Source: Tepidiforma sp. (lineage in GTDB: Bacteria > Chloroflexota > Dehalococcoidia > Tepidiformales > Tepidiformaceae). From it: 64,000 nt of DNA. Positions 6,862 to 36,237 of this stretch are shown in pieces (position 1 is the first letter of the stretch; every line of letters starts with the position of its first letter). Location: the NCBI RefSeq assembly GCF_026003995.1, contig NZ_BPIG01000003.1, positions 62,001 to 126,000 on the forward strand. The letters run 5' to 3'. Under the pieces are notes generated by a model, which saw only the letters and a program-made list of their open reading frames with translations, did no database searches and was not told the DNA's origin. A program made the position numbers and the translations under genes.

Positions 6862-7683
6862 GGGGTGGCGCGGCTGGCGCCGCGGTGGATGGCTGGCCGG
6901 CTTCGCCGGCGGCGCCGCGGGATGCCGGCGCTCCGCGCCGGCGGTGGGGGCGGGAGGCAGGAAGCGGGAGGCGGGAAGCGGGAGGCGGGAAGCGGGAGGC
7001 GGGAAGGGGGAAGGGGAGCGGGTGAGGCGGGAGGCGGGAAGCGGGAGACGGGAGGCGGGAGGACAACCTCCAACCTTCAACCTTCAACCTCCAGCGGTAG
7101 GCGCGGGGCTCCGTCCCCGCGGGGCGCCATGCGCCCAACGGATGGTCCGCGAACCGGGAACGGGGAACCGGGAGGCGGCGCAATCGAACGCGGGCGAAAT
7201 CGAACGGCGGGGTGGGCCTCGCCGGCCCTCCGCGGGGACGGAGCCCCGCGCCTACGGAGTTGGGAGTTGGGAGTTGGGAGTTGGGAGTTGGGAGTTGGGG
7301 GAGAGGGTGCGTCTGCGCGAGCGCCGGTCAACCTCCAACCTCTAACCTTCAACCTCCAACCTCCACCGGTAGTTGCGGGGCTCCGTCCCCGCGGGGCGCC
7401 ATGCGCCCAACGGATGGTCCGGGAACCGGGAACGGGGAACCGGGAGGCGGCGCAATCGAACGCAGGTGAAATCGAACGGCGGGGTGGGCCTCGCCGGCCC
7501 TCCGCGGGGACGGAGCCCCGCGGCTACGGAGTTGGGAGTTGGGACGCAGCCGGGAACGGGGAACCGGGAGGCGGGAACCGGGAGGCGGGCGAGGCATCAA
7601 CCTTCAACCTCCAACCTCCAACCTTCAACCGCGGGCGCGGAGCGCCCGCATCCCGCGGCGAAGCGGCGGGGCCGCCGCCCCGC
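6862..7683. repeat. Repeat island 1: two composite A-B units with terminal inverted modules
   Basis: No gene is supported here. The left end (6867-6948) is a GC-rich palindromic module C containing GCGGGATGCCGGCGCTCCGC. The right end (7627-7683) carries the inverted version, so the island has imperfect terminal inverted repeats. Inside are a GGGARGC heptad array (about 6950-7062) and two tandem copies of the composite element: module A at 7101-7147 and 7370-7420, and module B at 7211-7259 and 7482-7529. Module A contains GCGGGGCTCCGTCCCCGC followed by GGGCGCCATGCGCCC. Module B contains the inverse of the first part. Each A is preceded by CCTCCAA/CCTTCAA heptads and each B is followed by GTTGGGA heptads. 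Confidence 0.9.
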
Positions 7684-8517
7684 CTACTGGCGCCGGACGG
7701 CCCCCGGGATGCCGTTGGGGTCGATGCGCATGCCGTAGAGCTCCTGGTTGTGGCTGTGGGCGAGCTGGTGGAGGTTGAAGACGGCGAGCATCGCCTGCCA
7801 CTGGCCCTGCGCTTCGAGGGTCTGGTTGACGGCTTCCTTGGCGAGCTTGAGCGCGAACGATGGCTTTTCGGCAATCTTCTTCGCGAGTTCGAGGGTGAAG
7901 GTTTCGAGTTCCTCGCGGGGGACGACGTGGTTCACCATGCCGAGGCGGTGGGCATCCTGCGCGGTCACCCAGTCGGCGGTGAAGAGCATCTCCTTCGCTT
8001 TGCGGGCGCCGAGCTCCCAGGGGTGGGCGAAGTATTCGACGCCGCAGACGCCCATCTGGACGACGGGGTCGGAGAACATGGCGTCGTCGCTGGCGACGAT
8101 GAGGTCGCAGACCCAGGCGAGCATGAGGCCGCCGGCGATGCACTTGCCCTGGACCTGGGCGATGGTGGGCTTGGGGATGTTCCGCCAGCGGCGGCACATG
8201 CCGAGGTAGATTTCTTCTTCGACCGCCATGTAGCCCTCGGCGCCCTTTTTGCCGAATTCGCGCCAGGTGCCGACGGTGGGGTAGCTGGCGAGGGGCGGGC
8301 CGCCGCCGCGGAGGTCGTGGCCGGCGGAGAAATGGGGGCCGGCGCCGGCGAGGATGATGACCTTCACGGACTCGTCGGCGGCGGCGGTATCGAAGGCGGC
8401 GTTGAGGTCGTAGGTGAGCTGGTAGTTCTGGGCGTTGCGCGCTTCGGGGCGGTTCTGAGTGATGCGGGCGACGCCGGGCGCCGGGAGTTCGTAGAGGACG
8501 GTTTCGAAGTCGGGCAC
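7684..8517 (-). CDS. Enoyl-CoA hydratase/isomerase family protein
   Basis: A 277-residue crotonase. The oxyanion signature is F-S-A-G-H-D-L-R-G (about 57-65) and the second strand is Q-G-K-C-I-A-G-G-L-M-L-A-W near 118-130. As in the other crotonase of the window, the FGxPE glutamate is absent (F-S-D-P-V-V-Q-M-G-V). It belongs to a long-loop group with extra residues after the HDL motif. The start is a GTG at 8517 with GGAGG 6 nt upstream. A TACAAT (complement of 8550-8555) lies about 33 nt further, with TGACCG 17 bp before it. The stop codon lies right at the border of repeat island 1. Confidence 0.85.
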   Translation of the reverse strand: MPDFETVLYELPAPGVARITQNRPEARNAQNYQLTYDLNAAFDTAAADESVKVIILAGAGPHFSAGHDLRGGGPPLASYPTVGTWREFGKKGAEGYMAVEEEIYLGMCRRWRNIPKPTIAQVQGKCIAGGLMLAWVCDLIVASDDAMFSDPVVQMGVCGVEYFAHPWELGARKAKEMLFTADWVTAQDAHRLGMVNHVVPREELETFTLELAKKIAEKPSFALKLAKEAVNQTLEAQGQWQAMLAVFNLHQLAHSHNQELYGMRIDPNGIPGAVRRQ

Positions 8518-8575
8518 GGGCTGCCTCCGGGCGAGGAGAGATGGCCCGGATTGTACCGGCCGTACAGGAATTCGG

Positions 8576-8854
8576 TCAGGCGACCGAGGCCCAGGCCTGG
8601 AGCTTCTCGGCGAGGAGGCGGCGGACCTCGCCGGCGGCCTCGCCGGTGAAGGGGGCGAGTTCGGCGAGGCGGGCGTCGGCGTAGGCGAGGGCGGCTTCGA
8701 TGCTGGTGACGTCGTCGCTCTCGGCGGCTTCGATGAAGAGGGCGGAGGCGAGGATGCCGGGGTCGGCAGCGACGGCCTGCCGGGCGGCATCCTCGGTCTC
8801 GAGGGGCCGCTGGTAGATGCGCGAGAGCTGGCGGAGGCGGGGGTCAGCGAGCAT
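8576..8854 (-). CDS. Small hypothetical helical protein
   Basis: A 92-residue, Ala- and Glu-rich, mostly helical protein that I do not recognise. There is no signal peptide, cysteine or known motif. It lies between the crotonase and the zinc-ribbon gene, all on the minus strand, so it may be the middle gene of a short operon. A weak GAGG ribosome site is 9 nt before the ATG. The 33-bp gap to the zinc-ribbon gene contains a perfect CGCCCCGGGGCG palindrome at 8867-8878. Confidence 0.6.
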   Translation of the reverse strand: MLADPRLRQLSRIYQRPLETEDAARQAVAADPGILASALFIEAAESDDVTSIEAALAYADARLAELAPFTGEAAGEVRRLLAEKLQAWASVA

Positions 8855-8887
8855 GGGGCCGGGCCTCGCCCCGGGGCGCTTCGGCCG

Positions 8888-9247
8888 CTACTGGCGGGCG
8901 ACTTCTTCGCGCGGGGGCTTCAGTTTGCTGTAGCAGTTCGAGCAGTAGACGGGGCGCTCGCCGCGGGGGACGAAGGGGACCTCCGTCATCTGGCCGCACT
9001 CGGCGCAGGAGGCGGGGTGCATCTGCCGCGGGGTCTTGCCGCCGAAGCTGGCGAAGTTCCCGTAGCGGACGTAGCCGTCGGCCTGCTCGAGGGAGCTCTG
9101 GCTGGAGCGGCGGGCCGAGCGGCAGGAGGGGCAGCGGGTGGGCTCGTTCATGAGCCCTTTGTTGGCGTAGAACTCCTGCTCGCCGGCGGTGAAGACGAAG
9201 ATGTTGCCGCAATCGCGGCAGCTGATCTGCTTATCGGCAAACGCCAA
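8888..9247 (-). CDS. Zinc-ribbon domain protein (multiple CxxC)
   Basis: A 119-residue protein with four CxxC knuckles: C-R-D-C near 10-13, C-P-S-C near 39-42, C-A-E-C near 79-82 and C-S-N-C near 102-105. They would bind two zinc ions. The opening A-D-K-Q-I-S-C-R-D-C-G followed by F-V-F-T-A-G-E-Q-E-F-Y is the hallmark of a widespread bacterial zinc-ribbon family of unknown function, often tied to nucleic-acid binding. I use a TTG start at 9247 because AGGAG lies 6 nt upstream; the longer frame upstream is repeat DNA. It is probably the first gene of the group running left. Confidence 0.8.
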   Translation of the reverse strand: MAFADKQISCRDCGNIFVFTAGEQEFYANKGLMNEPTRCPSCRSARRSSQSSLEQADGYVRYGNFASFGGKTPRQMHPASCAECGQMTEVPFVPRGERPVYCSNCYSKLKPPREEVARQ

Positions 9248-9299
9248 GATGGACTCCTGGATTCCGCGCCATGCGGGTCTCGGATTCCATGGTAGCAGG

Positions 9300-9904
9300 T
9301 TGGCGAACGGGAGATGGATGCCGCGGCTGGCGCCGCGGCGGTGGATGGCTCGCCTTCGGCATCGCCGCGGGAGGCGGGAGGCGGGAAGCGGGAGGCGGGA
9401 AGCGGGAACGGGGAGGCGGGAGGCGGGAACCGGGAGGCGGGAGGCGGGAAGCGGGAGACGGGAGGCGGGAAGCGGGAACCGGGAGGCGGGAGGCGGGAAG
9501 CGGGAGACGGGAGGCGGGAAGCGGGAGAGGGGAAGCGGGAACGGGGAGAGAGGATGGCCTCCAACCTCCAACCGTAGTCGCGGGGCTCCGTCCCCGCGGA
9601 GCGCCATGCGCCCAACGGATGGTCCGGGAACCCGGAGGCGGGAAGCGGGAAGCGGCGGACCGCGCCGCGGTGAAAACGAACGGCAGGGTGGGCCTCGCCG
9701 GCCCTCCGCGGGCACGGAGGCCCGCGACTACGGAGTTGGGAGTTGGGAGTTGGGAGTTGGGAGTGAGTCGCACTCCGGCCGCGTCAACCTCCAACCTCCA
9801 ACCTTCCAGCGCGGGCGCGAAGCGCCGGCATCCCGCGGCGATGCCGCCGGCAGGCGGCGAGCCATCCGCCGCCGCGGGCGGCGAGCCCGCGGCATCCCGC
9901 GCGG
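9300..9904. repeat. Repeat island 2: composite A-B unit with terminal inverted modules
   Basis: Non-coding. Module C (9311-9370) opens the island and an inverted, extended C (9806-9904) closes it. Between them lie an almost pure GGGAGGC/GGGAAGC/GGGAACC heptad array of about 185 bp (9366-9552) and a short CCTCCAA tract. Module A follows at 9573-9622 and module B at 9687-9732, then a GTTGGGA tract of four repeats (9733-9763) and another CCTCCAA tract. The spacer between A and B differs from the spacers of island 1. The order and orientation on the plus strand are the same as in all other copies. Confidence 0.9.
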
Positions 9905-10321
9905 CTAGCCGCGGCCGGTGACGCCGGAGACGCGCTGGGGGTGGACGCGGATGATGACGCGGCCGTCGGCGCGGAGGCGCTCGTCGAAGCCGGGCGGCGC
10001 CTCCCAGGCGGGGTCGCGGCGCATCGCTCGGTTGATGAGGACGTGGCCGGGCACGAGGTTCTCGCGTTCGATCTCGGCGCGGCCTTCGACGGTGACGAAG
10101 CGGTGGGGCGCGCCTTCATCGAGCGCGGTGAGCGCGATACGGGGGTCGCGCGCGAGGGTGCGCGCTTTCAGGCGGTCGGCGGTGGTGCTGAAGATGAGGG
10201 TGTCGCCATCGGCGGCGTAGAAGACGACGGAAGAGGCGGGCGAACCGTCGGCGCGCAGGGTGGTGACGACGGCCCAGCGCCACTGGCGGAGGAGGGCATC
10301 CTGTTCGGGCGTTCCGATCAC
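9905..10321 (-). CDS. PPOX-class (F420- or FMN-dependent) flavoenzyme
   Basis: A 138-residue split-barrel protein of the pyridoxamine-phosphate-oxidase superfamily. The A-V-V-T-T-L-R-A-D-G-S-P-A-S-S-V-V-F-Y segment (17-35), the Thr-Ala-Asp-R-L-K-A-R motif (47-54) and the L-A-R-D-P-R-I-A-L-T strand are typical of the F420-dependent PPOX group. That assignment is by pattern, not proof. The GTG start has AAAGGAG 8 nt upstream. It may be cotranscribed with the upstream hydrolase (29-bp gap). The stop lies on the border of repeat island 2. Confidence 0.75.
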   Translation of the reverse strand: MIGTPEQDALLRQWRWAVVTTLRADGSPASSVVFYAADGDTLIFSTTADRLKARTLARDPRIALTALDEGAPHRFVTVEGRAEIERENLVPGHVLINRAMRRDPAWEAPPGFDERLRADGRVIIRVHPQRVSGVTGRG

Positions 10322-10350
10322 GGCGGGGCTCCTTTCGGGGGCGGCGGCGG

Positions 10351-11148
10351 TCAGCCGGCGCGCGCGAGGAAGTCGAGGACGAGGCGGTTGAAGGCGTCGG
10401 CCCGTTCGAAATAGACCGAATGGCCGGCGGCGGGGACGAGGGCGAACTCGCCGCGGGGGAGCGCCCGGGCGAGCGCTTCGACCGCCGGGGGCGGGATGAC
10501 GATGTCGTCGTCGCCGGCGAGGCAGAGGACGGGCACCTCGAGGGCGGCGACGTCGGCGGGGGTGATGGTCCAGAGCTCGCCGAGCTGGCGGCGGAGGGCG
10601 TCCTTGTCGAGGCCGGCCGCGAGGGCGTCGATACCGCGGTAGAGGAAGTGGAGGGCGGGCTGTTCGCGCGCCATCCGCTCACCGGCGGCCGGGTGAATGC
10701 CGCGGGCGAAGAGGCTGGCTTCGATGCCAGGCGGTTTCGCGGCCCAGGCGGCGGCCGTGGCGTCGGACCAGAAGCCGCCGTGGGTGTCGCACATGACGAG
10801 GGCGCGGACGCGGCCGGGGTTGGCGAGCGTGAAGGCGAGGCAGGTCCAGCCGCCCATCGACTGGGCGACGAGGCGGACGGGCTCGCCGGGCGCGGCGGCA
10901 TCGAGGAGGGCGGCGAGGTCGGCGGCGAAGGCGCGGGCGCCGGGTTCGGGCGCCTCCTGGGTCGAGGGGGCGAAGCCGCGGTGGGCGAAGGTGAGGCATC
11001 GGTAGCCGGCTGCGAGGAAGGCGGGGACCTGCTGCCACCAGGAGAGGTGGTTGCCGCCGAGGCCGTGGGCGAAGACGACGAGCGGGGCATCGGCGGGGCC
11101 GTGGAGTTCGTAGGAGATGCGGGCGCCGGGACGTTCGAGCCAGGGCAT
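10351..11148 (-). CDS. Alpha/beta hydrolase
   Basis: A 265-residue alpha/beta-hydrolase. The oxyanion H-G-L-G-G is at about 29-33, the nucleophile elbow A-Q-S-M-G-G near 94-99, the acid in A-G-D-D-D near 212-216, and the catalytic His in A-A-G-H-S near 239-243. The substrate is unknown. The ATG at 11148 is preceded by TAGAAT (complement of 11156-11161) with a 7-nt gap, predicting a leaderless transcript. It is divergent from the next hydrolase at 11235. Confidence 0.8.
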   Translation of the reverse strand: MPWLERPGARISYELHGPADAPLVVFAHGLGGNHLSWWQQVPAFLAAGYRCLTFAHRGFAPSTQEAPEPGARAFAADLAALLDAAAPGEPVRLVAQSMGGWTCLAFTLANPGRVRALVMCDTHGGFWSDATAAAWAAKPPGIEASLFARGIHPAAGERMAREQPALHFLYRGIDALAAGLDKDALRRQLGELWTITPADVAALEVPVLCLAGDDDIVIPPPAVEALARALPRGEFALVPAAGHSVYFERADAFNRLVLDFLARAG

Positions 11149-11234
11149 GGCGCGGATTCTACGCCGGAAGGCGCATTGGGACGGCAGGTCCTATGATGCT
11201 GCCGAAGTTCCCTGCGCCCGAGGTTGAGCCGCGT

Positions 11235-12038
11235 ATGCCGTACGTTCCCACGCGCGACATCATCACGTATTACGAGGAGGCGGGCTCCGGCGAGCCGCTG
11301 GTGCTCATCCGGGGGCTGGGGAGCGACCTGCAGGCGTGGGCGCCGCAGCTGCCGCTGCTGGCGAAGCACTTCCGGGTCATCGTCTACGACAACCGGGGCG
11401 CGGGGCGGACGGGCGCGCCGGACAAGCCGTACAGCATCGCCGGGATGGCGGACGACCTCGCGGCGCTGCTGGACGAGCTGAAGGTGGAGAAGGCGCACGT
11501 CCTCGGCTATTCGATGGGCGGGATGATCGCGCAGGAGTTCGCGCTGCGGCACCCGGGGCGGCTGGAGAAGCTCATCCTGCTGGCGACCACGGCGAAGCCG
11601 GACGGCTACGTGCGGGCCGTGCTGCAGTCGTTCATCACCATTCGGCGGACGAACATCTCGCGCGAGGGGTTCGTGCGGGCGCTGGCGCCGTTCCTGTACA
11701 CGGCGGGGCTGTTCGACGACGAGGACCGGTACGAGCGGGCGATCCTGGCGAGCGTGCAGAACCCGTACGCGCAGCAGGACCACGCCTTCATCCGGCAGGC
11801 GCAGGCGATCCTCGCGCACGATGCGAGCGGGCGGGTCAGCGGCATCAAGGCGGCGACGCTGGTGGTGACGAACCCGGGCGACATCCTCATCCCGCCGCGG
11901 CACGGGGAGGCGCTGGCGAAGGCGATCCCCGGGGCGCAGCTGAAGTCGCTGGACGGCGGCCATGCGGGCGTGACGGAGTACCCGGTGGAGCACTGCCAGG
12001 CGTTCCTCGAATTCCTCGGGGCGGCGGTCACGGCCTGA
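11235..12038 (+). CDS. Alpha/beta hydrolase
   Basis: A 267-residue alpha/beta-hydrolase with oxyanion strand L-I-R-G-L-G-S-D, nucleophile elbow G-Y-S-M-G-G-M (about 96-102), acid in N-P-G-D-I-L and His in G-G-H-A-G-V near the C-terminus. The first strand has R-G-L-G rather than H-G-x-G, as in many 3-oxoadipate enol-lactonase-like proteins; the actual substrate is unknown. Upstream in-frame ATGs at 11193 and 11196 exist. I chose 11235 because M-P-Y-V-P-T begins the conserved domain and a GAGGT lies upstream. It runs in the same direction as the LLM gene 83 bp downstream. Confidence 0.75.
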   Translation: MPYVPTRDIITYYEEAGSGEPLVLIRGLGSDLQAWAPQLPLLAKHFRVIVYDNRGAGRTGAPDKPYSIAGMADDLAALLDELKVEKAHVLGYSMGGMIAQEFALRHPGRLEKLILLATTAKPDGYVRAVLQSFITIRRTNISREGFVRALAPFLYTAGLFDDEDRYERAILASVQNPYAQQDHAFIRQAQAILAHDASGRVSGIKAATLVVTNPGDILIPPRHGEALAKAIPGAQLKSLDGGHAGVTEYPVEHCQAFLEFLGAAVTA

Positions 12039-12121
12039 CGGGTGACGCGGAGCGGGGCCGGCGCGCGGCCGGTAGAATGCGGGGCACGAATCGTTCGCAC
12101 GAGAGAAAGTGAGCCCCTGCC

Positions 12122-13330
12122 ATGGTGTACCGCCCGCGCCGGATGAAGTTCGGCATCTTCCTCGCGCCCTTCCACCGGGTCGGTGAGAACCCGACGCTGG
12201 CGCTGAAGCGCGACCTCCAGCTGATCGAGCACCTCGACTTCCTCGGCTTCGACGAGGCGTGGATCGGCGAGCACCATTCGTACGCGCGGGAGCTCATCGC
12301 GGACCCGATGATCTTCATCGCGGCGGCGGCGCAGCGGACGCGGCGGATCAGGCTGGGGACGGGGGTCACCTCGCTGCCGTACCACCACCCGTTCCTCGTG
12401 GCGGACCGGATGCTCCAGCTGGACCACATGACGGAAGGGCGGGCGATGCTGGGCTGCGGGCCCGGCGTGCTGACGAGCGACGCCTACATGATGGGGATCG
12501 ACCCGCTCGTTCAGCGGCGGCGGATGGACGAGGCGCTGGGCGCGATCATGCAGCTGCTGCGGACGCGGGAGCCGGTGACGATGCAGACGGACTGGTTCAC
12601 GCTGCGGGATGCGCGGCTGCAGATGGCGAACTTCAGCGACCCGCACCTGCACGTGGCGGTAGCGGCGAGCTTTACGCCGGCGGGGCCGACGGCGGCCGGG
12701 AAGTACGGCACGGGGCTGCTTTCGGTGGCCGGCGTGAGCCACGAGGCGTTCGAGCGGACGTGGGGTTGGGCGGAGGAGGCGGCGGCCGAATCGGGCCAGA
12801 AGATTTCGCGGGACGACTGGAAGGTGGTCATCCCGGTCCACCTTTCGGATTCGAAGCAGCAGGCGATCGAGGACGTGCGGGAGGGATACCGGCGGCAGGC
12901 GTACGTCGGCGACCGGCTGAACAACGACAGCCCCTCGGCGGCGCCGCCGTTCGCGGGCGGGGCGCCGGATATCGAAGGGGCGATGGCGCGGGACGGCGTG
13001 ATCGTGGGGACGCCGGACGATGCGATCGCGGCCATCGAGCGGATCCAGGAGCGCTCGGGCGGCATCGGCGGGCTGCTCATCCTCGCGCACGAGTGGACGA
13101 CGACGGAGAAAACGTTCCACAGCTACGAGCTGTTCGCGCGGTACGTCGCGCCGCGGTTCCAGGGCCAGCTGGAGGTGCTGGAGGAGAACCGGAACTGGAT
13201 CGAGACGAACATGGGCGAAGTCTTCAAGGGGACGGCGAAGGCGCAGGTGCAGGCGTTCGCCGAGGCCGGCAAGGAGCTGCCGGAGGAGATGCGGCGGGCG
13301 ATGGAGCAGATGCGCCGGGCGCGGGAGTAG
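12122..13330 (+). CDS. LLM class flavin-dependent oxidoreductase
   Basis: A 402-residue bacterial-luciferase-like monooxygenase with a TIM-barrel fold. It starts with K-F-G-I-F-L-A-P-F-H and has the family features D-E-A-W-I-G-E-H-H near 42-50, T-R-R-I-R-L-G-T-G-V near 74-83, H-P-F-L-V-A-D-R and G-R-A-M-L-G-C-G-P-G. Such enzymes use FMNH2 or F420 to oxidise alkanes, terpenes or sulfonates; the substrate here is not evident. TAGAAT at 12073-12078 is a plausible -10 with a leader of roughly 37 nt. Confidence 0.85.
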   Translation: MVYRPRRMKFGIFLAPFHRVGENPTLALKRDLQLIEHLDFLGFDEAWIGEHHSYARELIADPMIFIAAAAQRTRRIRLGTGVTSLPYHHPFLVADRMLQLDHMTEGRAMLGCGPGVLTSDAYMMGIDPLVQRRRMDEALGAIMQLLRTREPVTMQTDWFTLRDARLQMANFSDPHLHVAVAASFTPAGPTAAGKYGTGLLSVAGVSHEAFERTWGWAEEAAAESGQKISRDDWKVVIPVHLSDSKQQAIEDVREGYRRQAYVGDRLNNDSPSAAPPFAGGAPDIEGAMARDGVIVGTPDDAIAAIERIQERSGGIGGLLILAHEWTTTEKTFHSYELFARYVAPRFQGQLEVLEENRNWIETNMGEVFKGTAKAQVQAFAEAGKELPEEMRRAMEQMRRARE

Positions 13331-13552
13331 GCATCGGGGGCGCCCGCGGGGCGCGTGTGTTGCAAGGTCGCGCGGAGTCGTCGTATCGTGAGGGTGCTGG
13401 AAGGGACGGCGCCACGCCGGGTGGCGTATTCCAGCTCCCCACACGTCCAGGCTTCAGCACGAGCCCACAGCGGAAGTCCAGCGACAGCCACCGCAGCGTC
13501 AGCCCACCACCTCGTTCCTCGGGCGCCATCAGACACGCACACGGGAAGACCC
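13331..13552 (+). promoter_or_regulatory. rho promoter and long 5' leader
   Basis: The 222 bp before rho holds no gene I can support. TTGCAA at 13360-13365 and TATCGT at 13384-13389, 18 bp apart, form a plausible promoter, giving a leader of about 155 nt. The leader is C-rich and G-poor for this genome, with many CCAC and CAGC runs (13435-13510). That is the kind of unstructured C-rich RNA to which Rho loads, consistent with the autogenous attenuation known for rho in other bacteria. The autoregulation is inference. Confidence 0.4.
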
Positions 13553-15508: not shown

Positions 15509-15644
15509 GGGAAACCCGTAGGGGTCCCGCTCCCCGGCATTCAGAGGCCGCCGGGATAGCCAGGAAAGGAGGAGAGGAGCAGGCTTCGGCTGTGCTCAGC
15601 CCGCGCCGGCGGTTCGCTCCCGCGGCGCGCCAGCACAACTGCTT
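15509..15644 (+). promoter_or_regulatory. Leader/terminator region between rho and the M23 gene
   Basis: These 136 bp contain an initial GGGG...CCCC fold (about 15509-15538) that could help end rho transcription. A GAGCA...TGCTC stem around a TTCG loop follows (about 15577-15597), then a purine-rich GGAAAGGAGGAGAGGAG stretch. Cell-wall hydrolase genes in other phyla often carry c-di-AMP riboswitches here, but I cannot match the conserved ydaO-type blocks. Confidence 0.3.
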
Positions 15645-16865: not shown

Positions 16866-16924
16866 GGCGCCAGCTGCTGCGCGGCTGACCTGACCGCGCG
16901 GGCGCGGTGCGGTAGGCTCAGGGC

Positions 16925-17407: not shown

Positions 17408-17931
17408 GGATCCGGGAAACGGGAGACGGGAAACGGAACGATAGCCGCCAACCTCCAACCTCCAACCGTAGTCGCGGGGCTCGGTCCCTGCGGGGCGCGG
17501 TGCGCCCAAACGGACGTTCCGGGAACCGGGAGACGGGAGGCGGGAGCGGGCGAATTCGGGCGTGGGGGTGGGCCTCGCCGGCCCTCCGCGGGCACGGAGG
17601 CCCGCGACTACGGAGTTGGGAGTTGGGAGTTGGGAGTTGGGAGAGAGCGTGCGCCTGGCCGGGCGGCCGTCAACCTCCAACCTCCAACCTTCAACCTCCA
17701 ACCTTCAACCTCCAACCTTCAACCTCCAACCTTCAACCTCCAACCTTCAACCTCCAACCTTCAACCTCCAACCTCCAACCTTCAACCTCCAACCTCCAAC
17801 CTCCAACCTCCAACCTCCAACCTTCAACCTCCAACCTCCAACCTCCAAACTCCCCGGGCGCGGACGGGCCGCGGGGTGGGTTCCCCCGCGGCCCGTCGCT
17901 GGTGTGCGGTTGATGTGCCGGCGCGGCGCGG
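17408..17931. repeat. Repeat island 3: A-B unit plus long CCTCCAA/CCTTCAA array
   Basis: Non-coding. After a short GGGAGAC tract, module A is at 17467-17520 (slightly diverged, GGCTCGGTCCCTGCGGGG), module B at 17566-17612, and a GTTGGGA tract at 17613-17642. From about 17669 to 17848 comes the longest pyrimidine array of the window: alternating CCTCCAA and CCTTCAA heptads, many as 14-bp CCTCCAACCTTCAA units. The complementary strand is a run of GG dinucleotides (GGTTGGAGGTTGG) able to form two-quartet G-quadruplexes. The array lies at the 3' end of the aldehyde:ferredoxin oxidoreductase gene. Confidence 0.9.
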
Positions 17932-19746: not shown

Positions 19747-19785
19747 GGATAAACGCCTCCTATTGCTGCGATTCAGGCTGGGGGA

Positions 19786-20355: not shown

Positions 20356-20767
20356 GCGGGGGCGGGAGACGGGAACCGGGAGGCGGGAGGCGGGAGGCGG
20401 GAGGCGGGAACCGGGAAGCGGGAGGCGGGAGGCGGGAACCGGGAGGCGGGAAGCGGGAGGCGGGAGGCGGGAACCGGGAGGTGGGAAGCGGGAGGCGGAA
20501 GCGGGAAGCGGGAGCGGGAAGCGGGAGGCGGGAAGCGGGAGGCGGGAGGCGGGAGGCGGGAAGCGGGAGGCGGGAGGCGGGAGGCGGGAAGCGGGAGGCG
20601 GGAGGCGGGAAGCGGGTGAAATCGAACGTCGGGGTGGGCCTCCCGGCCCTCCGCGGGGACGGAGCCCCGCGGCTACGGAGTTGGGAGCGGGGGAGGCGGG
20701 AAGCGGGAGGCGGGAGGAAGGCCGACCTCCAACCTCCAACCTTCAACCTCCAACCTCCGGGGCGGGA
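20356..20767. repeat. Repeat island 4: long GGGARGC array and a lone B module
   Basis: Non-coding. From about 20362 to 20618 there is an almost uninterrupted purine-rich array of heptads GGGAGGC, GGGAAGC and GGGAACC (about 36 units), the longest of this type here. A lone module B follows at 20631-20687, without a partner A, then a shorter GGGARGC tract (20686-20722) and CCTCCAA/CCTTCAA heptads (20727-20757). The G-runs of three are spaced 4 bases apart, giving many possible three-quartet G-quadruplexes on the plus strand. Confidence 0.9.
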
Positions 20768-21210: not shown

Positions 21211-21226
21211 CAGGGCGCGGCGCGCG

Positions 21227-23548: not shown

Positions 23549-23635
23549 TGTCTCGAATCTCCTTCGGATTCGTGGCACTGTAGCAGATATTCGGAAGGGG
23601 CGTCCATTAGCGGCCGCGCGGGTAGGATCGGCGGC

Positions 23636-24274: not shown

Positions 24275-24310
24275 GGACGGGGACCGGCGCGGCGCGTACG
24301 ATTGCGGGGC

Positions 24311-25862: not shown

Positions 25863-25961
25863 GGGAGTTGGGGGTTCGGAGTAGGGAGTTCGGAGTTGGG
25901 AGGAGGGAGGAGGGAGGAGCAACCTCCAACCTTCGACCTCCAATCGGGGGCGGGCGGCGGC
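25863..25961. repeat. Short degenerate repeat tract
   Basis: A 100-bp remnant of the composite repeat. Diverged GTTGGGA heptads (25865-25900) run into GGAGGGAG triplets and then CCTCCAA/CCTTCGA heptads (25920-25942). Modules A and B are absent. It sits between two genes that converge. Confidence 0.75.
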
Positions 25962-26204: not shown

Positions 26205-26365
26205 GGGTGCGCGCCGCCTTCCTTGCTGGCCGGCGCCGCGGGCGCGCCGCTGATGGTTCGCCGGTGACGAACGATTGTGCGGTCCGACCGTACCACGGGC
26301 GGGGCAGATGCACACCGGAAGCGCGGGGGACGTTACCGGGGCTGCGCCGGGCGGCCTCCCGCGGC

Positions 26366-28918: not shown

Positions 28919-28983
28919 GTGCTTCAGGGTACGGCATGGATGCGGCGGCGCGCCTCAGGCCGGGGCGTGCGAAACTCGGGGGG

Positions 28984-29763: not shown

Positions 29764-30967
29764 AGGCGGGCGGCCGGGCGAGGAGGAAGAGGCCGAGCGC
29801 GGCCGTTGAGGCTGCCGCCATGCCGCCGGCGAGCGTGGCCGGGCCGGGCTGGACGGCAGCGGAGAACGCGATGCTGGCGGCGGAGGCGAGCGCCATCTGG
29901 GTGAAGCCCACGACGGCGGAAGCGAGGCCGGCCATCTCCGGGAAGTCGGCGAGCGCGGTGGCCGTCGCGGCCGGCCGGGCCATGCCGTTCCCGGCGAGGA
30001 TGACGAAGGCCGGGAGAACCGTCGCGGGGAGGGCTTCGATGCCGACGAGGGCAAGCGCTGTCATCACGGCGGCCGCTGTCCAGCCCATCGCGGCCGCGAG
30101 GAGGACGATCCGGCCGGGCGGCCAGCGGCTCGAGAGCCGGCGGCAGACGGTCGCGCCGGCCATGATGCCGAAGGAGACGAAGCCGAAGCTGAGGCCGAAG
30201 ACGAGCGGGCTCGCGCCGAGGTCGTCGACGAGAACGAAGGAGCTGGTGGAGATGAAGATGAGCTGCCCGGCGAACAGGAGGCCCAGGAGCAGGGCGGCGG
30301 TGACGAAAGTGCGGGAGCGGAAGAGGCGGCGGTAGTTCGCGGCCTGGCGGGAGAGCGCGAGAGCGGACGGGTCGGGGGAGCGGTTCGTTTCGGGGACGAG
30401 GGCGAGGAAGGCGGCGGCGAGGATGAGCCCGACGGCGGCCTGGAGGACAAAGACCACGCGCCAGGCGGCGTACTCCTGGATGAGGCCGCCGAAGACGGGC
30501 GCGATCATCGGGGCGAGCGCGATGGAGAGGGTGATGAGGGCGAGGATGCCGATGGCGCGCTCGCGGCGGTAGGTGTCGATGACGACGGCGTTGGCGATGG
30601 CGGGGCCGGCGCCGCCGCCGAGGCCCTGGAGCACCCGGCCGGCGAGCAGGACGGGGATGCTCGGCGCAGCGAGGCAGAGGAGGCTGCCGGCGATGAAAAG
30701 CGCGAGCCCGGCGAGGAGGGCGGGCCGCCGGCCGGCGCGGTCGGAGAGCGGCCCCCAGAAGAGCTGGGCGCCGGCGAAGGCGAAGATGAAGAGCGTGACG
30801 GCGAGGGAGAGCGTGCCCGTGCTCGTGTCGAATTCGCGGGCCATCGCGGGCATCGAGGGGAGGAAGACGTCGACGGCGATGGGGGCGAGGGCGGCGATGC
30901 CGACGAGGACCGCGGTGGCGGCCGGGCGTTCGACCCGGGAAAGCGGCGGAGCAGGGGGCCGGGCCAT
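29681..30967 (-). CDS. MFS drug-resistance transporter (Bcr/CflA type)
   Basis: A 428-residue major-facilitator proton antiporter with about 12 hydrophobic segments. The Bcr/CflA signature is seen in helix 1, D-V-F-L-P-S-M-P, and the loop 2-3 motif is G-P-L-S-D-R-A-G-R-R-P. The C-terminal 30 residues are Pro/Ala-rich and are encoded antisense to the last 83 bp of rlmB; there is no earlier stop. Substrate is unknown. I choose the ATG at 30967 rather than 30976, because TACGAT (complement of 30975-30980) is then 7 nt upstream, as in other leaderless genes here. Confidence 0.85.
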   Translation of the reverse strand: MARPPAPPLSRVERPAATAVLVGIAALAPIAVDVFLPSMPAMAREFDTSTGTLSLAVTLFIFAFAGAQLFWGPLSDRAGRRPALLAGLALFIAGSLLCLAAPSIPVLLAGRVLQGLGGGAGPAIANAVVIDTYRRERAIGILALITLSIALAPMIAPVFGGLIQEYAAWRVVFVLQAAVGLILAAAFLALVPETNRSPDPSALALSRQAANYRRLFRSRTFVTAALLLGLLFAGQLIFISTSSFVLVDDLGASPLVFGLSFGFVSFGIMAGATVCRRLSSRWPPGRIVLLAAAMGWTAAAVMTALALVGIEALPATVLPAFVILAGNGMARPAATATALADFPEMAGLASAVVGFTQMALASAASIAFSAAVQPGPATLAGGMAAASTAALGLFLLARPPAFSPRAPAPGTGAAAATGTPAHPSPPPR

Positions 30968-31071
30968 GCGGGGCATCGTACGGGCGGGGCGCGGCTCGCG
31001 ACAGGCCGGGGGAACCTTTGGGGCGCACGGGGCGTTTTCGGCAGGGGGAGATGTCCCCCCGGGAGGCAGCG

Positions 31072-32286
31072 ATGCGGCGGTTGATGCTGGCAGCGGCTGG
31101 CGCGATTGCGGTCGCGGCGGCGGCCGCCTGCAGCGGGGGCGAGAGCGAGCGGCCCGCGGAGCCGGGCGGGACGGCGGCAGCGACGGAGACGCCCTCCGCG
31201 GCGCGGCCGCTGGCCGTCGTGGTGGTGCAGTCGGGGAGCGAGGACACGCCGGGGCGAAGCTACCCGCTGCTGGAGGTGGTGAGCTTCGACGCGGCGACGG
31301 GAGACGAGGCGGCGCGGTTCCAGGCCGGCGGCAGGGACGATCTCCTCACGCCGGGGATGGTCTTCCTCGCCGGGCGGGAGGTGGTGACCGTGGGAGAGAA
31401 GCGGGTCGTGCGCCGGGCGCTCGATGGGCGGGAGCTCGGCGTGCTCATGGACTGGCGGGAGGACCAGCGGGCGACGACGGCGGCGCTCTCGCACGATGGG
31501 CGGCTGCTCGCCGTCGGCTGGGAGGACGCCGGGCTGCGGGACCGGGAGAACGGCGGGCTCATCGTGGTCGAGGTGGCGACCGGGCGGGTCGTCCGGGAGT
31601 GGGGCATGGACGTCTTCGGGCCGGCGGTCGGCGCGTGGCCGGCGCCGGAGGGCTGGCACGCGGACGACCTGGGGCTGGAGGTGTTCGGCTTTGCGCACCG
31701 CGACGGGCCGGGGGTGTTCGCCTCGGTGCGGCTGGACGGGAGCGTGGCGCGGCGGGGGCCGATCGTGGCGGGCATCGAGCCCGGCGGGCGGCTCATCGCG
31801 ACGGCACCGGGCGGCTGGACGTGGGCGTGCATGGGCATCGCCATCGCGGCGCGGGAGCTGGTCTTCGCCGACCCGGTGAACGGGCGCGAGGCGGGCCGGG
31901 CGGCGCTCGACGGCTTCGCGCTCTGGCCGATGCGCTTCGCGCCCGGCGCCGACGCTGTGCTGCTGGAGGCGTACCCGGTCCGACCGGCGCCGACGGGCGG
32001 CGAGTGCTACGCGTGGCAGGCTGGCGCCGAGGTGTACCTGTTCACGTTCGCCAGCGGGAAGCTGGAACGGGTGCCGAACCCGGGAGCGATCGCGGCGGGG
32101 TGGAATGACCCGGCTCTGCCCTCCATCGTATGCGCCAGCAACGCCGTTGATGCGGGGCCGTGGGCGGAGGTGCGGGACCCGCGCTGGGCGGTCTTCTGCG
32201 AGGGAGGCGCGGAGGTGCGCCTCGGCGGGAAGGTCGTGCTGCGCACGGAGCAGCTGCAGGTGCTGGGCCTCGCCCCCGGGGACTGA
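31072..32286 (+). CDS. Lipoprotein with propeller-like repeats
   Basis: A 404-residue exported lipoprotein. A signal peptide ends in A-A-A-A-C-S-G-G (Cys about 20). The mature part has repeated strand-rich units with R-x-x-D-G motifs (R-A-L-D-G-R-E, L-S-H-D-G-R-L-L-A-V-G, V-R-L-D-G-S-V), suggesting a beta-propeller of WD40 or TolB type. I do not recognise the family. The ATG at 31072 has GGGAGG 5 nt upstream and begins a proper signal peptide. The stop is followed at once by repeat island 5. Confidence 0.7.
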   Translation: MRRLMLAAAGAIAVAAAAACSGGESERPAEPGGTAAATETPSAARPLAVVVVQSGSEDTPGRSYPLLEVVSFDAATGDEAARFQAGGRDDLLTPGMVFLAGREVVTVGEKRVVRRALDGRELGVLMDWREDQRATTAALSHDGRLLAVGWEDAGLRDRENGGLIVVEVATGRVVREWGMDVFGPAVGAWPAPEGWHADDLGLEVFGFAHRDGPGVFASVRLDGSVARRGPIVAGIEPGGRLIATAPGGWTWACMGIAIAARELVFADPVNGREAGRAALDGFALWPMRFAPGADAVLLEAYPVRPAPTGGECYAWQAGAEVYLFTFASGKLERVPNPGAIAAGWNDPALPSIVCASNAVDAGPWAEVRDPRWAVFCEGGAEVRLGGKVVLRTEQLQVLGLAPGD

Positions 32287-32780
32287 GGCGGGAGGCGGGA
32301 AGCGGGAGACGGGAAGCGGGAGGCGGGAGGCGGGTGGCTTCGGGCATACGGGTGGGCCTCGCCGGCCCTCCGCGGGGACGGAGCCCCGCGGCTACGGAGT
32401 TGGGAGTTGGGAGTTGGGAGTTGGGAGTTGGGAGGGAGCGTAACGGCGGCTCGCGGACTCGCGGACTCGCAACCTCCAACCTCCAACCTCCAACCTCCAA
32501 CTTCCAACCCGGGGTGAAGGGAGCAGGCGGGGTCGTGGTCGCGGGGCTCCGTCCCCGCGGGGCGCCATGCGCCCAACGGACGTTCCGGGAACCGGGAGGC
32601 GGGAACCGGGAGGCGGGAGGGGGGAAGCGGGAGGGGGTGACTTCGGGCATACGGGTGGGCCTCGCCGGCCCTCCGCGGGGACGGAGCCCCGCGTCGACGG
32701 AGTTGGGAGTTGGGAGTTGGGAGGGAACTGAGGGCCGTTCGGCCGTGGCGGACGTTCGGCGGCGGGCGGAGAATGCCGCC
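32287..32780. repeat. Repeat island 5
   Basis: Non-coding. Starts with a GGGARGC tract (32285-32334). A lone B module with its GTTGGGA tract follows (32351-32434), then direct repeats CGGCTCGCGGACTCGCGGACTCGC-like (about 32444-32470), CCTCCAA heptads (32471-32507), a full A module (32533-32587), a GGGARGC spacer and a full B module with GTTGGGA tract (32654-32724). The final 55 bp before the ABC gene are unique and contain GAGAAT six bases before the ATG. Confidence 0.9.
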
Positions 32781-33683
32781 ATGGCGGAGCCGGCAGCGAT
32801 CGCAACGCACGACCTGACGCGGACGTTCGGCGAGACGGTCGCGCTCGAGGGGCTCGACCTGCGCGTGGAGCGGGGCGAGATCTTCGGCTTCCTCGGGGCG
32901 AACGGCGCCGGGAAGACGACGACGATCCGGCTGCTGCTCGACCTCATCCGGCCGACGCGCGGCGAAGCGCGGGTGCTGGGGTTCGATTGCCAGCGGGATT
33001 CGCTGGAGGTGCGGCGGCGAATCGGCTACCTGCCGGGCGAGCTGCGGCTCTACCCGGGACTGACCGGCGAGCAGACGGCGGCGTACTTCGCGGCGCTCCG
33101 GGACGGGGCGGTGGACCGCGCGTACATGGACGAGCTGGCGCGGAGGCTGGAGCTGGACCTTTCGCAAAAGGCGGGCTCGCTTTCGAAGGGGACGCGGCAG
33201 AAGCTCGGGCTCCTGCTCGCGCTGATGGCGCAGCCGCCGGTGCTGCTGCTCGACGAGCCGACGAGCGGGCTCGACCCGATCGTGCAGCACACGGCCTGGG
33301 AGCTATTGCGGGAGGCCGCCGCGCGCGGGACGACGGTGTTCTTTTCGTCGCACGTCCTGAGCGAAGTGGAGCAGGTCTGCGAGCGCGTGGCCGTGCTGAA
33401 GCGGGGGCGGCTGGTCGCGCTCGATACGGTCGCCGGGCTCAAGGAGCGGGCGGTGCGGCACTGCGAAGTGACGTTCGCGGACGACGCGCCGCCGCCGGGC
33501 GCGGTCGCCGGGCCGGGGGTGCGGGAGATTCGCCGGGAGCGGCGGGTCATCGAGTTCGAAGTAACGGGAGAGTTCGACCCGCTGCTGAAGGCGCTGGCGG
33601 CGTTCCGCGTGGCCGACCTGCGCACCTCGGCGCCGACGCTGGAGGAGATCGTGCGGGAGTACTACGAGGAGGGCGGGCCGTGA
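32781..33683 (+). CDS. ABC transporter ATP-binding protein
   Basis: A 300-residue ABC ATPase of the drug/bacteriocin exporter (DrrA/CcmA-like) type. Walker A is G-A-N-G-A-G-K-T-T-T (about 40-49), the signature is degenerate, S-L-S-K-G-T-R-Q-K-L-G (about 135-145, Thr/Arg in place of G-Q), Walker B is L-L-L-D-E-P-T-S-G-L-D (about 155-165) and the H-loop is S-S-H-V. A C-terminal domain of about 90 residues is typical for the group. It overlaps the permease gene by one base (TGATG) and forms an exporter with it. Confidence 0.88.
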   Translation: MAEPAAIATHDLTRTFGETVALEGLDLRVERGEIFGFLGANGAGKTTTIRLLLDLIRPTRGEARVLGFDCQRDSLEVRRRIGYLPGELRLYPGLTGEQTAAYFAALRDGAVDRAYMDELARRLELDLSQKAGSLSKGTRQKLGLLLALMAQPPVLLLDEPTSGLDPIVQHTAWELLREAAARGTTVFFSSHVLSEVEQVCERVAVLKRGRLVALDTVAGLKERAVRHCEVTFADDAPPPGAVAGPGVREIRRERRVIEFEVTGEFDPLLKALAAFRVADLRTSAPTLEEIVREYYEEGGP

Positions 33684-34492
33684 TGCGGCGGTTCCCGGTG
33701 GCGTGGAAGGCGTTCCGCGATGCGCGGGTGACGGCCTTCGGGGGCGGGGGGCTCGCCTTCGGGCTCGGGCTGCTCTACGTGGCGCTCTTCCCGTCGATCC
33801 AGGAGACGCTGGCGGGGGCGCAGCTGCCCGAATGGTGGCAATCGTTCGGCGGCGAAGCGGGCTACACGACGCCGGCGGGCTACCTCTCGGGCGAATTCTT
33901 CATGGCGGTGCCGATCATCCTCGTCATCTTCGCGGTGGTGAACGGGACGGGCGCGACGGCGGGCGAGGAGTCGGCCGGGACGCTGGAGCTGTTGCTGGCG
34001 CAGCCGGTGCGGCGGCGGCGGGTGGTGGTGGAGAAGGCGGCGGGGCTCGGCGCAGCGCTGGCGGTGGCGATGCTGCTCGGCGGGCTGGGCGTGTACGCGG
34101 GGCAGGCGCTGGTGGAGTTCGAGCTGAGCCCGCTGCGGGTCGCGGCGGCGCTGGTGCTCACGGTGCCGGTGCTGTGGTTCTTCCTCGCGCTCGCGCTGCT
34201 GGCGGGGGCGGCGCTGCCGGGGCGGGCGGCAGCGGCGGCGGTGTCGACGCTGCTCGCCGTGGCGGCCTACGTGCTGAACACGATTGCGAACCTCGTCGAC
34301 TGGCTGCGGCCGTGGCGGAAGGCGCAGCCGTTCTGGTGGTCGGACGTCTCGGGGGTGCTGAGCGGCGATTGGGGCGATGCGTGGCAGCCGCTGGTCCTGC
34401 TGGCGGCTGCTGCCGTGCTGTTCGCGGGGGCCGTGGTGATGTTCGAACGGCGGGACATCGGCGTGGGCGGCGGGCGGAGGAGGAGGAAGTAG
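33683..34492 (+). CDS. ABC transporter permease (ABC-2 type)
   Basis: A 269-residue integral membrane protein with six hydrophobic segments. The first loop is long (about 45-65), and a G-E-E-S-A-G-T-L-E-L-L-L-A-Q-P-V coupling region near 94-109 is characteristic of ABC-2 permeases that cooperate with DrrA/NodI-like ATPases. Direction is presumably export. The exported compound is unknown. A GTG three bases earlier is an alternative start. The Arg/Lys-rich tail (R-R-R-R-K) ends at the edge of repeat island 6. Confidence 0.85.
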   Translation: MRRFPVAWKAFRDARVTAFGGGGLAFGLGLLYVALFPSIQETLAGAQLPEWWQSFGGEAGYTTPAGYLSGEFFMAVPIILVIFAVVNGTGATAGEESAGTLELLLAQPVRRRRVVVEKAAGLGAALAVAMLLGGLGVYAGQALVEFELSPLRVAAALVLTVPVLWFFLALALLAGAALPGRAAAAAVSTLLAVAAYVLNTIANLVDWLRPWRKAQPFWWSDVSGVLSGDWGDAWQPLVLLAAAAVLFAGAVVMFERRDIGVGGGRRRRK

Positions 34493-35096
34493 CGGGAACC
34501 GGGAGGCGGGAAGCGGGAACCGGGAGACGGGAGCCGGGAAGCGGGAGCCGGGAGGCGGGAGACGGGAAGCGGGAGGCGGGAAGCGGGAGGCGGGAGACGG
34601 GAAGCGGGAGGCGGGAGACGGGGCACGGGAGCCGGGAGTCGGAGGTCCGGGTGGGCCTCACCGGCCCTCCGCGGGGACGGAGCCCCGCGGCTACGGAGGC
34701 GGGAGGTGGGAGGTGGGGGAGCGTGCGACGGACCCCGGATTCGTCAACCTCGAACCTTCAACCCCCAACACGGGGCGGTGCGGCAGGCGAGGTCGTAGTC
34801 GCGGGGCTCCGTCCCCGCGGGGCGCCATGCGCCCAACGGATGCTCCGGGAACGGGGAGTGGGAAACGGGAGGCGGGAGGCGGTAGCTTGAATTCGGACGC
34901 CCGGGTGGGCCTCACCGGCCCTCCGCGGGGACGGAGCCCCGCGACTACGGAGTTGGGAGGTGGGAGTGTGGTGACGGGAGGGGAACGGGGAACGGGGAAC
35001 GGGGAACGGGGAACGGGGAACGGGGAACGGGGAGAGAGGATAACCTCCAACCTCCAACCTCCAACCTCCAACCTCAGCACCGCGTATGATGCGCGC
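34493..35096. repeat. Repeat island 6
   Basis: Non-coding. GGGARGC/GGGAGCC heptads (34494-34640), a lone B module (34650-34697), and a segment of about 75 bp (34728-34800) that recurs nearly unchanged at 35590-35660. Then come a full A module (34793-34847), GGGARGC spacer, a full B module (34902-34950), an octa-like GGGGAAC array (about 34980-35030) and CCTCCAA heptads (35043-35075). The TATGAT hexamer at 35085-35090 belongs to the next gene. Confidence 0.9.
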
Positions 35097-35480
35097 ATGA
35101 CGCAGCCGGGGGCTTCGCCATTTCCGGGTCCGGAGGAGCTGCTGAAGCAGTTCCAGCAGCTGAACGAGCAGTTTCTCTCGGCGTGGGGGAAGACGTACGA
35201 GAGCTTCATGGCCTCGGCGGCGGGCCAGGAAGCCTCGAAGGAGACGCAGCAGGCGTACGTGGCGACGCGGGCGGCGCTGGCGCGGGCGGCGCGGGAGGCG
35301 TGGGGGCCGCTGATCGAGGCGGCGGGCGCGGTGCCGCTTTCGGAGTTCCAGCGGCTGGCGGACCAGGTGCAGCTCATCCTCGAGCGGCTCGACGCCATCG
35401 ATGACCGGCTGGATGAGCTGGCGGGGATGCTGCGCGAAGCGGGGAAGGGCAAGGGGAAAGGGAAGAAGGCGCAAGGGTAG
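35097..35480 (+). CDS. Small helical PhaE/phasin-like protein
   Basis: A 127-residue, mostly helical protein. It begins P-E-E-L-L-K-Q-F-Q-Q-L-N-E-Q-F-L-S-A-W-G-K-T-Y-E-S-F, has W-G-P-L-I near 68-72, a helix L-I-L-E-R-L-D-A-I-D-D-R-L-D-E-L near 93-108, and ends G-K-G-K-G-K-K. This pattern resembles PhaE/PhaR subunits of polyhydroxyalkanoate synthase or phasins. A PhaC-like gene lies 4 kb away, which supports but does not prove the assignment. TATGAT at 35085-35090 is 6 nt before the ATG. The gene is an island between two dense repeat regions with duplicated flanks. Confidence 0.6.
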   Translation: MTQPGASPFPGPEELLKQFQQLNEQFLSAWGKTYESFMASAAGQEASKETQQAYVATRAALARAAREAWGPLIEAAGAVPLSEFQRLADQVQLILERLDAIDDRLDELAGMLREAGKGKGKGKKAQG

Positions 35481-35955
35481 GGGATGCCGCGGGCTCGCCG
35501 CCCGCGGCGGGGGATGGCTGGCCGCCTTCGGCGGCGGCGCCGGATGGGAGTTGGGAGTTGGGAGTTGGGAGTTGGGAGGGAGCGTATGGCCGGACCCGGA
35601 TTCGTCAACCTCGAACCTTCAACCCCCAACACGAGGCGGTGCGGCAGGTGAGGCCGTCGTCGCGGGGCTCCGTCCCCGCGGGGCGCCATGCGCCCAACGG
35701 ATGGTGCGGGAACCGGGAAGCGGGAGGCGGGAGGGGGTGGATTCGAGCGTCCGGGTGGGCCTCGCCGGCCCTCCGCGGGGACGGAGCTCCGCGGCTACGG
35801 GAACCGGGAAGCGGGAACCGGGAAGCGGGAGGCGGGAAGCGGGACCGGGAAAGGCGAGGGCCAACGTCCGGGTGGGCCTCGCCGGCCCTCCGCGGGGACG
35901 GAGCCCCGCGACTACGGGGTCGGGAGGTGGGAGTTGGGAGCTCGGAGAGGCAGGA
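35481..35955. repeat. Repeat island 7
   Basis: Non-coding. A C module (35483-35545) opens the island, followed by GTTGGGA heptads (35547-35577) and the second copy of the 75-bp segment also found at 34728-34800. An A module lies at 35656-35710, a B module at 35750-35800 (one base changed, GGAGCTCCGCGG), GGGARGC/GGGAACC heptads, and a further B module (35870-35920). The island passes straight into the CTCCCTTT array. Confidence 0.9.
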
Positions 35956-36237
35956 CCTTTCTCCCTTTCTCCCTTTCTCCCTTTCTCCCTTTCTCCCTTT
36001 CTCCTTTCTCCCTTTCTCCCTTTCTCCCTTTCTCCCTTTCTCCCTTTCTCCCTTTCTCCCTTTCTCCCTTTCTCCCTTTCTCCCTTTCTCCCTTTCTCCC
36101 TTTCTCCCTTTCTCCCTTTCTCCCTTTCTCCCTTTCTCCCTTTCTCCCTTTCTCCCTTTCTCCCTTTCTCCCTTTCTCCCTTTCTCCCTTTCTCCCTTTC
36201 TCCCTTTCTCCCTTTCTCCCTTTCTCCCTTTCTCCCT
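35956..36237. repeat. CTCCCTTT tandem octanucleotide array
   Basis: About 35 head-to-tail copies of the octamer CTCCCTTT over roughly 280 bp, perfect except for one CTCCTTT unit near 36001-36007 and the degenerate right end. All pyrimidines are on one strand, so the array is a mirror-repeat-rich homopurine-homopyrimidine tract that could form triplex (H-DNA). It lies at the 3' end of the DinB-like gene on the minus strand. All three forward frames are open through it, but the peptide would be a Ser-Pro-Phe-Leu repeat with no sign of being a gene. Confidence 0.97.

Follow-up and report, generated by a model that had tools for sequence, protein, structure and literature searches.

Among bacterial chromosomal repeats, sites of the matS/MatP type are short palindromes without polarity that are confined to the terminus, and the heptanucleotide short tandemly repeated repetitive (STRR) tracts of filamentous cyanobacteria are, like the tracts reported here, intergenic 7-bp tandem tracts, among which we know of no origin-centred concentration or mirror polarity. 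We analysed a 64,000-nt stretch of Tepidiforma sp. (the window; assembly GCF_026003995.1, contig NZ_BPIG01000003.1, positions 62,001 to 126,000), part of contig C3 of a 2.84-Mb genome referred to below as G000, which carries a composite intergenic repeat of two hairpin modules, A and B, embedded in heptanucleotide tracts. The modules are restricted to about a third of the chromosome in the related species T. flava, where their orientation is mirrored on the two sides of a cluster of parS-like sites. The closest described relatives by layout are the repetitive extragenic palindromic (REP) sequences and bacterial interspersed mosaic elements (BIMEs), described as GTAG plus a hairpin in facing pairs (PMC6006769, PMC8266576), with a stem rule given as 7-20 paired nucleotides and a loop of 2-5 nt, or an added stem (PMC6006769). 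GTAG repeats have been reported in Chloroflexi, the GTAG-23 family of Thermomicrobium roseum being described as unusually clustered, and most REP families are said there to be spread over the genome (PMC3733652).

Modules A and B share one build, consisting of a GTAG foot, a 7-bp hairpin and a second hairpin. Read from outside, both start with CCGTAGTC, CCGTAGCC or similar, continue into hairpin 1 (7 pairs and a 6-nt loop, CTCCGT), and end in a second part that is GGGCGCCATGCGCCC in A and GGGCCGGCGAGGCCC in B. The core GCGGGGCTCCGTCCCCGC has 19 matches in the window at up to 3 mismatches, vs 1.8 expected in shuffles, and 18 of these are A or B modules, the remaining match at 7666 being a different palindrome. 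Typing by the second hairpin gave 7 A modules, all on the plus strand, and 11 B modules, all on the minus strand, the same counts as an initial annotation of this DNA had given; its eight islands become six when clustered at 1.2 kb, the number depending on the distance used. The GTAG foot is present in 96 of 114 typed modules in G000 and in 71 of 89 in T. flava. Facing A-B pairs (n = 63 over both genomes) span 110-258 bp, and the A-B unit carries terminal inverted repeats. In the pair at 34793-34950, singled out in the initial annotation for its inverted repeat, the cores indeed form one, 33 nt long and 94% complementary, and the unit folded as single-stranded DNA reaches -60.5 kcal/mol (z -6.4 against shuffles). 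Among 28 distinct B sequences, 8 have C-G in place of G-C at one of the 12 stem column pairs, with a covariation score reached by none of 500 shuffles; the other 11 pairs showed no covariation, and the numbers of covarying pairs and of pair types were not above those of shuffles.

These features make A and B REP/BIME-like by layout. As in REP, BIME and REPIN (REP doublet forming hairpin) elements, a GTAG (or GTGG) foot stands 0-2 nt 5' of the hairpin, the hairpins are short, GC-rich and intergenic, they face one another in inverted pairs across a variable spacer, and alternative complementary residues occur in the stems. The stem of 7 falls within the stem rule, but the 6-nt loop is outside the 2-5 nt range, a second hairpin sits on each module, and A and B are asymmetric. 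No match to PF01797, the family of REP-associated tyrosine transposases (RAYTs) and other Y1 enzymes, was found in G000-G005, that is in G000 and five other genus members (G005 being 72% complete), in a search confined to that family; five of 14 control genomes were positive. A and B are also confined to the parS region, mirror-polar and embedded in heptad tracts rather than scattered genome-wide. Because they depart from REP families in loop size, transposase association and genomic spread, we did not file them as REP. The annotators' statement that the repeat belongs to no REP or BIME family known to them therefore calls for qualification, since facing GTAG-tagged hairpins are the layout of these elements even though the three properties above differ. 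Their view that it is neither an insertion sequence nor CRISPR fits what we observed; none of the 10 proteins scanned from the window matched a Pfam transposase.

The distribution of the modules is sharply regional. In G000 the core matched 114 times at up to 2 mismatches, vs 2 in the control, and all matches fell on contigs C2, C3 and C5, with none at this threshold on the 1.0-Mb contig C1. Typing gave 115 modules in G000, grouped in 49 islands, and 99 in T. flava, grouped in 41. Of the 99 related genomes searched with a pattern, G000 among them, only G000 and T. flava were positive, and a scan of a public collection, which may omit G000 itself, returned T. flava as the sole match. The covariance-model search of relatives that had been proposed for this repeat was run with a model built from B modules: scoring 150 of 12,362 first-look candidates in T. 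flava, it placed 104 of 104 matches at 736,115-1,734,341 of the 2,767,986-bp chromosome, from 493 kb left to 504 kb right of the parS cluster, and with 150 candidates scored per genome it found no match in G002-G005. The A/B domain thereby delimited is about 36% of the T. flava chromosome. As T. flava is a separate complete genome and holds modules mostly at orthologous sites, the possibility of an assembly artefact, raised in the initial annotation, can be set aside.

Within this domain the units are oriented as mirror images. Writing '>' for a unit with A left of an inverted B and '<' for the opposite, we found '>' in 19 of the 21 T. flava islands that lie to the left of 1.107 Mb and '<' in 15 of the 16 that lie to the right of 1.24 Mb (Fisher 2e-7), so that 34 of 37 islands follow the mirror pattern outside a central block of about 130 kb. 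This block has low skew, and its four islands (1.134-1.237 Mb) are all '<', three of them lying left of parS; measured against parS itself, 35 of 41 T. flava islands agree in polarity. The same holds in G000, where 19 of 20 islands on C3 are '>' and 23 of 29 on C2 and C5 are '<' (Fisher 2e-7). No island of mixed polarity occurs among the 90 islands of both species, 67 of which hold more than one module, and in the window all A-B units and heptad arrays point one way. Flanking gene strands around 85 islands, assigned by a simple codon-position score, are evenly distributed (++ 20, -- 21, +- 22, -+ 17, 5 untyped), and unit polarity is independent of them. Unit polarity and the polarity of the flanking heptads agree in 84 of 90 islands, 78 of 79 concordant islands and 6 of 11 discordant ones, which implies that some discordant islands were inverted together with their tracts and that in others the unit alone was turned within a correctly oriented tract. 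The spacers of the 8 discordant A-B units, some of which are near-copies, contain fewer GGGA words than those of the 55 concordant units (p 4e-4). For these concordance and heptad counts, as for the foot counts above, borders were set at 1.12-1.14 Mb and all of C2 was taken as one side.

The centre of symmetry in T. flava coincides broadly with a sharp GC-skew switch at 1.23 Mb, from +0.21 to -0.25 in successive kilobases. Seven parS-like sites (at most 2 mismatches in 16) lie there at 1,229,470-1,230,162, adjoined by yidC, jag, parA and parB; the matching stretch of C3 has seven such sites at 300,721-301,418 and a lone one at 286,728, and in G003 six parS-like sites at 568,730-569,335 again mark a skew switch. 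We consider it very probable that this region of T. flava is the replication origin. A reading of 1.23 Mb as the terminus, suggested by the sign of the GC skew, was dropped because parS and yidC-jag-parA-parB sit at the switch. Genes directed away from 1.23 Mb include dnaA and, identified by motif in the DNA examined, two groEL, secA, gyrB and rpsL-tuf; the 16S gene observed in G003 likewise points away from the parS sites of that genome. Coding DNA reading away from vs toward 1.23 Mb amounts to 165 vs 126 kb and 115 vs 89 kb on the left and to 180 vs 177 kb and 71 vs 60 kb on the right, a tally that lends the origin weak support. No DnaA box of the form TTRTCCACA occurs in the T. flava DNA examined, and the best dif-like sites (17/28 in T. 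flava, 18/28 in the G003 samples) were not meaningful. If parS does mark the origin, Tepidiforma would have an inverted GC skew, at an amplitude of up to about 0.2; among the window genes, seven that are named by Pfam and lie on both strands share one sign of plus-strand skew. The confinement and mirror symmetry of A and B hold whether or not the origin reading is right.

The heptad tracts form a second component that is independent of A and B and was found in both clades examined. The CCTCCAA and GTTGGGA heptads noted earlier beside the modules are there, and GGGANNN heptads flank them too: the window holds 22 GGGANNN, 6 CAACCYY and 5 GGAGTTG arrays, all on the plus strand, the GGAGTTG arrays overlapping GGGANNN arrays. 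Across the T. flava domain (border 1.14 Mb), 140 of 154 GGGANNN arrays and 52 of 56 CAACCYY arrays read toward parS. Isolated CAACCTC words mostly run the opposite way (71 toward parS, 214 away), so strand composition does not explain the polarity of the CAACCYY tracts; isolated CCTCCAA words are balanced (41 toward, 39 away), and isolated GGGA words do not exceed their permutations in skew. A restrictive pattern for array starts, which marks starts not preceded by G and misses arrays preceded by G, found 66 starts on the whole T. flava chromosome, at 633,136-1,734,293, and 4 with the reversed control pattern. On the whole G003 chromosome it found 25 starts at 71,683-1,018,198 (reversed control 10), 23 of which read toward the parS of that genome, though no A or B was found in G003. 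GGGA arrays number 2 in 240 kb of samples outside the T. flava domain vs 154 in the domain of about 1.02 Mb, and among 20 G003 samples 7-periodic arrays occurred only in the one at 685 kb.

The parS-oriC region is thus where the tracts are concentrated, and on both arms their predominant reading toward parS is 5'-(GGGANNN)n-(CCTCCAA)n-3'. As polar, parS-centred composites, the Tepidiforma repeats differ from sites of the matS/MatP type. They resemble architecture imparting sequences (AIMS) and FtsK orienting polar sequences (KOPS), as described in PMC5993296, PMC2680272 and PMC3140498, in being polar with respect to the replication arms and regionally concentrated. AIMS, however, are characterised there as octamers that become more abundant and more strand-biased toward the terminus, whereas the tracts here are long composites around parS that read toward the probable origin, and isolated GGGA words show no bias of their own beyond composition.

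Comparison of the two species indicated how the layers change. Mapping of orthologous empty sites, another check proposed at the outset, showed that 10 of 49 G000 islands have no A or B at the matching T. flava site, and all ten of these sites carry heptad arrays; one of the ten islands lies where the genomes are rearranged and was matched by a single flank, and C3 islands 71580 and 79474 are counted among them with a neighbour island close by. Three of these ten lineage-specific islands are discordant, and all three are mutual neighbours. In this comparison five G000 islands, some of which correspond to a single T. flava island, were marked as inverted with respect to their genes, suggesting inversion in situ or through rearrangement. 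Near dnaA, flanks that stand about 16 bp apart in G004 are separated by about 800 bp with five modules in G000, an observation that is suggestive only.

Contig C3 aligned to T. flava in four collinear blocks at the settings used, and all three breakpoints, counted for C3 alone and leaving out the C2 and C5 breakpoints seen from island flanks, fall inside islands, which with margins make up 3.9% of C3 (chance about 6e-5). Distances of breakpoint partners from parS are similar, as in the pairs 333/319 and 174/178 kb, though 128/84 kb is also found. Module number per island varies, and tandem B series occur. The dinucleotide after GTAG in A is TC in 40 of 48 modules in G000 and CC in 27 of 40 in T. 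flava, and a weaker difference is found in B (CC in 26 of 66 vs 39 of 52); since the sites are mostly common to both species, this pattern suggests concerted evolution of the modules within each species. Two near-identical, reversed A-B units of T. flava, at 802,149-802,258 and 1,597,613-1,597,722 on opposite arms, look like the product of exchange between arms.

The account that we tentatively favour, at a little less than an even chance, is a two-layer composite in which REP-like doublets lie inside older polar heptad tracts of the parS-oriC domain. The first layer would be the intergenic heptad tracts, older than A and B and independent of them, and the second, in the clade of T. flava and G000, the A-spacer-B doublets of facing GTAG-tagged hairpins, placed inside the tracts and usually sharing their polarity. 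The doublets may have spread as passengers, through recombination or a single-strand mechanism, and been homogenised by exchange among islands, and islands at comparable distances from the origin on opposite arms could recombine to give origin-symmetric inversions that preserve polarity. The tracts might in turn mark direction or distance for the machinery of the origin domain (ParB-SMC arm organisation or a fork-linked process), which would maintain polarity and confinement; this last step is the least certain part of the explanation. As the cause of confinement and polarity we would place architectural selection ahead of fork-directed insertion and that ahead of a neutral by-product. A stronger version, in which mirror-polar tracts mark about 1 Mb around oriC-parS and are read by the machinery of that domain, such as SMC leaving parS, and in which the doublets set sites of arm-arm exchange and so give origin-symmetric inversions, we regard as possible but on balance doubtful.

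Several observations weigh against this two-layer account and the origin on which it leans. With parS as origin, the leading strand would be C-rich, opposite to the GC skew commonly seen, and of 23 tRNA genes 19 would be head-on (taking the second switch at 2.33 Mb, with seven of the 23 in its blurred zone), as would ftsK, the second tuf gene (tuf2) and atpD; dnaA, rather than adjoining parS, lies about 463 kb from it in T. flava (766 kb; in G000, C5 at 82 kb). Because the central block is uniform, polarity in T. flava flips 95-122 kb left of parS and not at parS, and 8 of 63 A-B units are discordant. Most islands are common to G000 and T. flava and hence are non-independent samples. No transposase was found in the scans given above, and no target-site duplication is readable at the modules in the heptad sequence. 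T. flava arrays also occur at 438 kb and 2.118 Mb, about 0.8 and 0.9 Mb from parS, so that tract confinement is not strict, and the unrestricted heptad searches cover 100 listed places of 600 and of 394. This looser confinement lowers our estimate of the favoured and architectural readings and raises that of a neutral origin.

An insertion process directed by replication forks could produce much of the same pattern. An HUH/Y1-type single-strand transposase acting on the lagging-strand template, and since lost, would have placed A and B, perhaps also the heptads, in orientations that record fork direction. GTAG-hairpin doublets are described as the substrate of TnpA-REP, and the orientation of IS608 and ISDra2 as following replication (PMC8266576, PMC5371812); presence/absence differences between the species also fit. 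We nevertheless judge this route unlikely, given the PF01797 result, the same tract polarity in G003, where A and B were not found, and the 6 of 11 discordant islands whose heptads are reversed too, which indicates that units tend to follow the tract and not the fork; the review moreover gives termination sites, rather than origins, as preferred. Neutral processes, in which heptads slip in tolerated intergenic DNA, recombination spreads the doublet and origin-symmetric inversions keep polarity, would account for breakpoints in islands, variable module number and tandem B series, the species-specific dinucleotide after GTAG and the tracts outside the domain. This by-product reading leaves the confinement of A and B to about 36% of the chromosome, and a CAACC tract polarity that runs against strand composition, without explanation, and we hold it to be marginally less likely than fork-directed insertion.

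Were 1.23 Mb the terminus after all, the tracts could be signposts of the AIMS/KOPS type for FtsK. The usual GC-skew sign and the tRNA strands would then fall into place, an FtsK gamma domain is encoded in all four genomes tested, and AIMS are described as rising toward the terminus in polar fashion (PMC5993296). The parS sites at the T. flava and G003 switches, with yidC-jag-parA-parB at the former, and the outward-running dnaA, groEL, secA, gyrB and rpsL-tuf make this improbable, as do the lack of a convincing dif-like site in the DNA examined, isolated GGGA words no more skewed than their permutations, and an FtsK-gamma helix in which N and R of GYNRAAR are L and K. KOPS identity itself was rejected on the helix and on the absence of specific bias in isolated words. 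It is more improbable still that the hairpin pairs act as transcribed terminators or mRNA-end structures: the B stem swap and the strong fold of the A-B unit would suit such RNA elements, but just one of 12 pairs covaries, counts do not exceed shuffles, polarity is unrelated to flanking gene strand, no Rfam match occurs within the window, and the covariation is equally compatible with a DNA hairpin.

Of the three identities floated in the initial annotation, a chromosome-organisation site is thus the best supported, by the confinement of A and B and their mirror polarity about parS. A non-autonomous mobile element has partial support from presence or absence between species at heptad sites, and in favour of a structured RNA stand a single covarying base pair and the fold. 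To our knowledge, no repeat family combines absence outside a parS-centred domain with mirror polarity about it. The open-access literature that we searched yielded no description of parS-confined, mirror-polar repeats in the text available, and those passages of the main Tepidiforma genome paper that matched our search are silent on such genomic repeats. The results suggest a layer of chromosome organisation previously unrecognised in two related heat-loving bacteria. If confirmed, it would offer a sequence-level map of an origin domain, tie origin-symmetric inversions to specific repeats, and provide a natural system for studying how large-scale polarity arises, whether by selection, replication-linked insertion or arm-arm recombination.

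In the window, where strands are as given above for A and B, the modules occupy 7095-35917. The leftmost are two successive A-B pairs (A 7095-7144 and B 7208-7257; A 7367-7416 and B 7480-7529). The A at 9572-9621 faces a B at 9684-9733 with the core variant GCGGGCCTCCGTGCCCGC, which carries the compensatory pair, and the A at 17466-17515 faces a B at 17564-17613 with the same variant; the collinear T. flava sites of both these A modules have heptads without A or B. A single B lies at 20629-20678. Further along are a B at 32348-32397, an A with foot GTGG at 32533-32582 and a B with foot GTCG at 32651-32700, then a B at 34647-34696 followed by the best pair (A 34793-34842, B 34901-34950), and finally an A with foot GTCG at 35654-35703 and two B modules at 35751-35800 and 35868-35917.

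Heptad arrays, all on the plus strand, are interleaved with these modules. GGGANNN arrays run at 6966-7063, 9369-9550 and 34494-34619, and others surround the lone B at 20364-20718. CAACCYY arrays adjoin A at 7064-7091 and occur at 17671-17845, 20730-20757 and 32470-32497, and GGAGTTG arrays follow B at 7256-7297, 9732-9759, 17612-17639 and 32396-32430, with another at 35547-35574. At 34981-35075 a GGGANNN tract is joined to a CAACCYY tract with no A or B between, the GGGGAAC tract meeting the AACCTCC tract head-on via GAGAGAGGAT; this junction is possibly a bare form of the composite.

Two other repeats lie near the islands. A second palindromic family, around GGCATCCCGCGGCG, occurs in the window at 6913-6945, 7628-7660, 9806-9898 and 35481-35527. 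It is polar in the T. flava domain (plus strand, 5 left and 15 right; minus strand, 14 left and 3 right), is also found outside it (5 in 240 kb sampled vs 37 in 1,016 kb of domain), and had no match in 400 kb of G003 samples. Adjoining the last window island, at 35956-36237, is a near-perfect octanucleotide array of 35 copies of CCTTTCTC.

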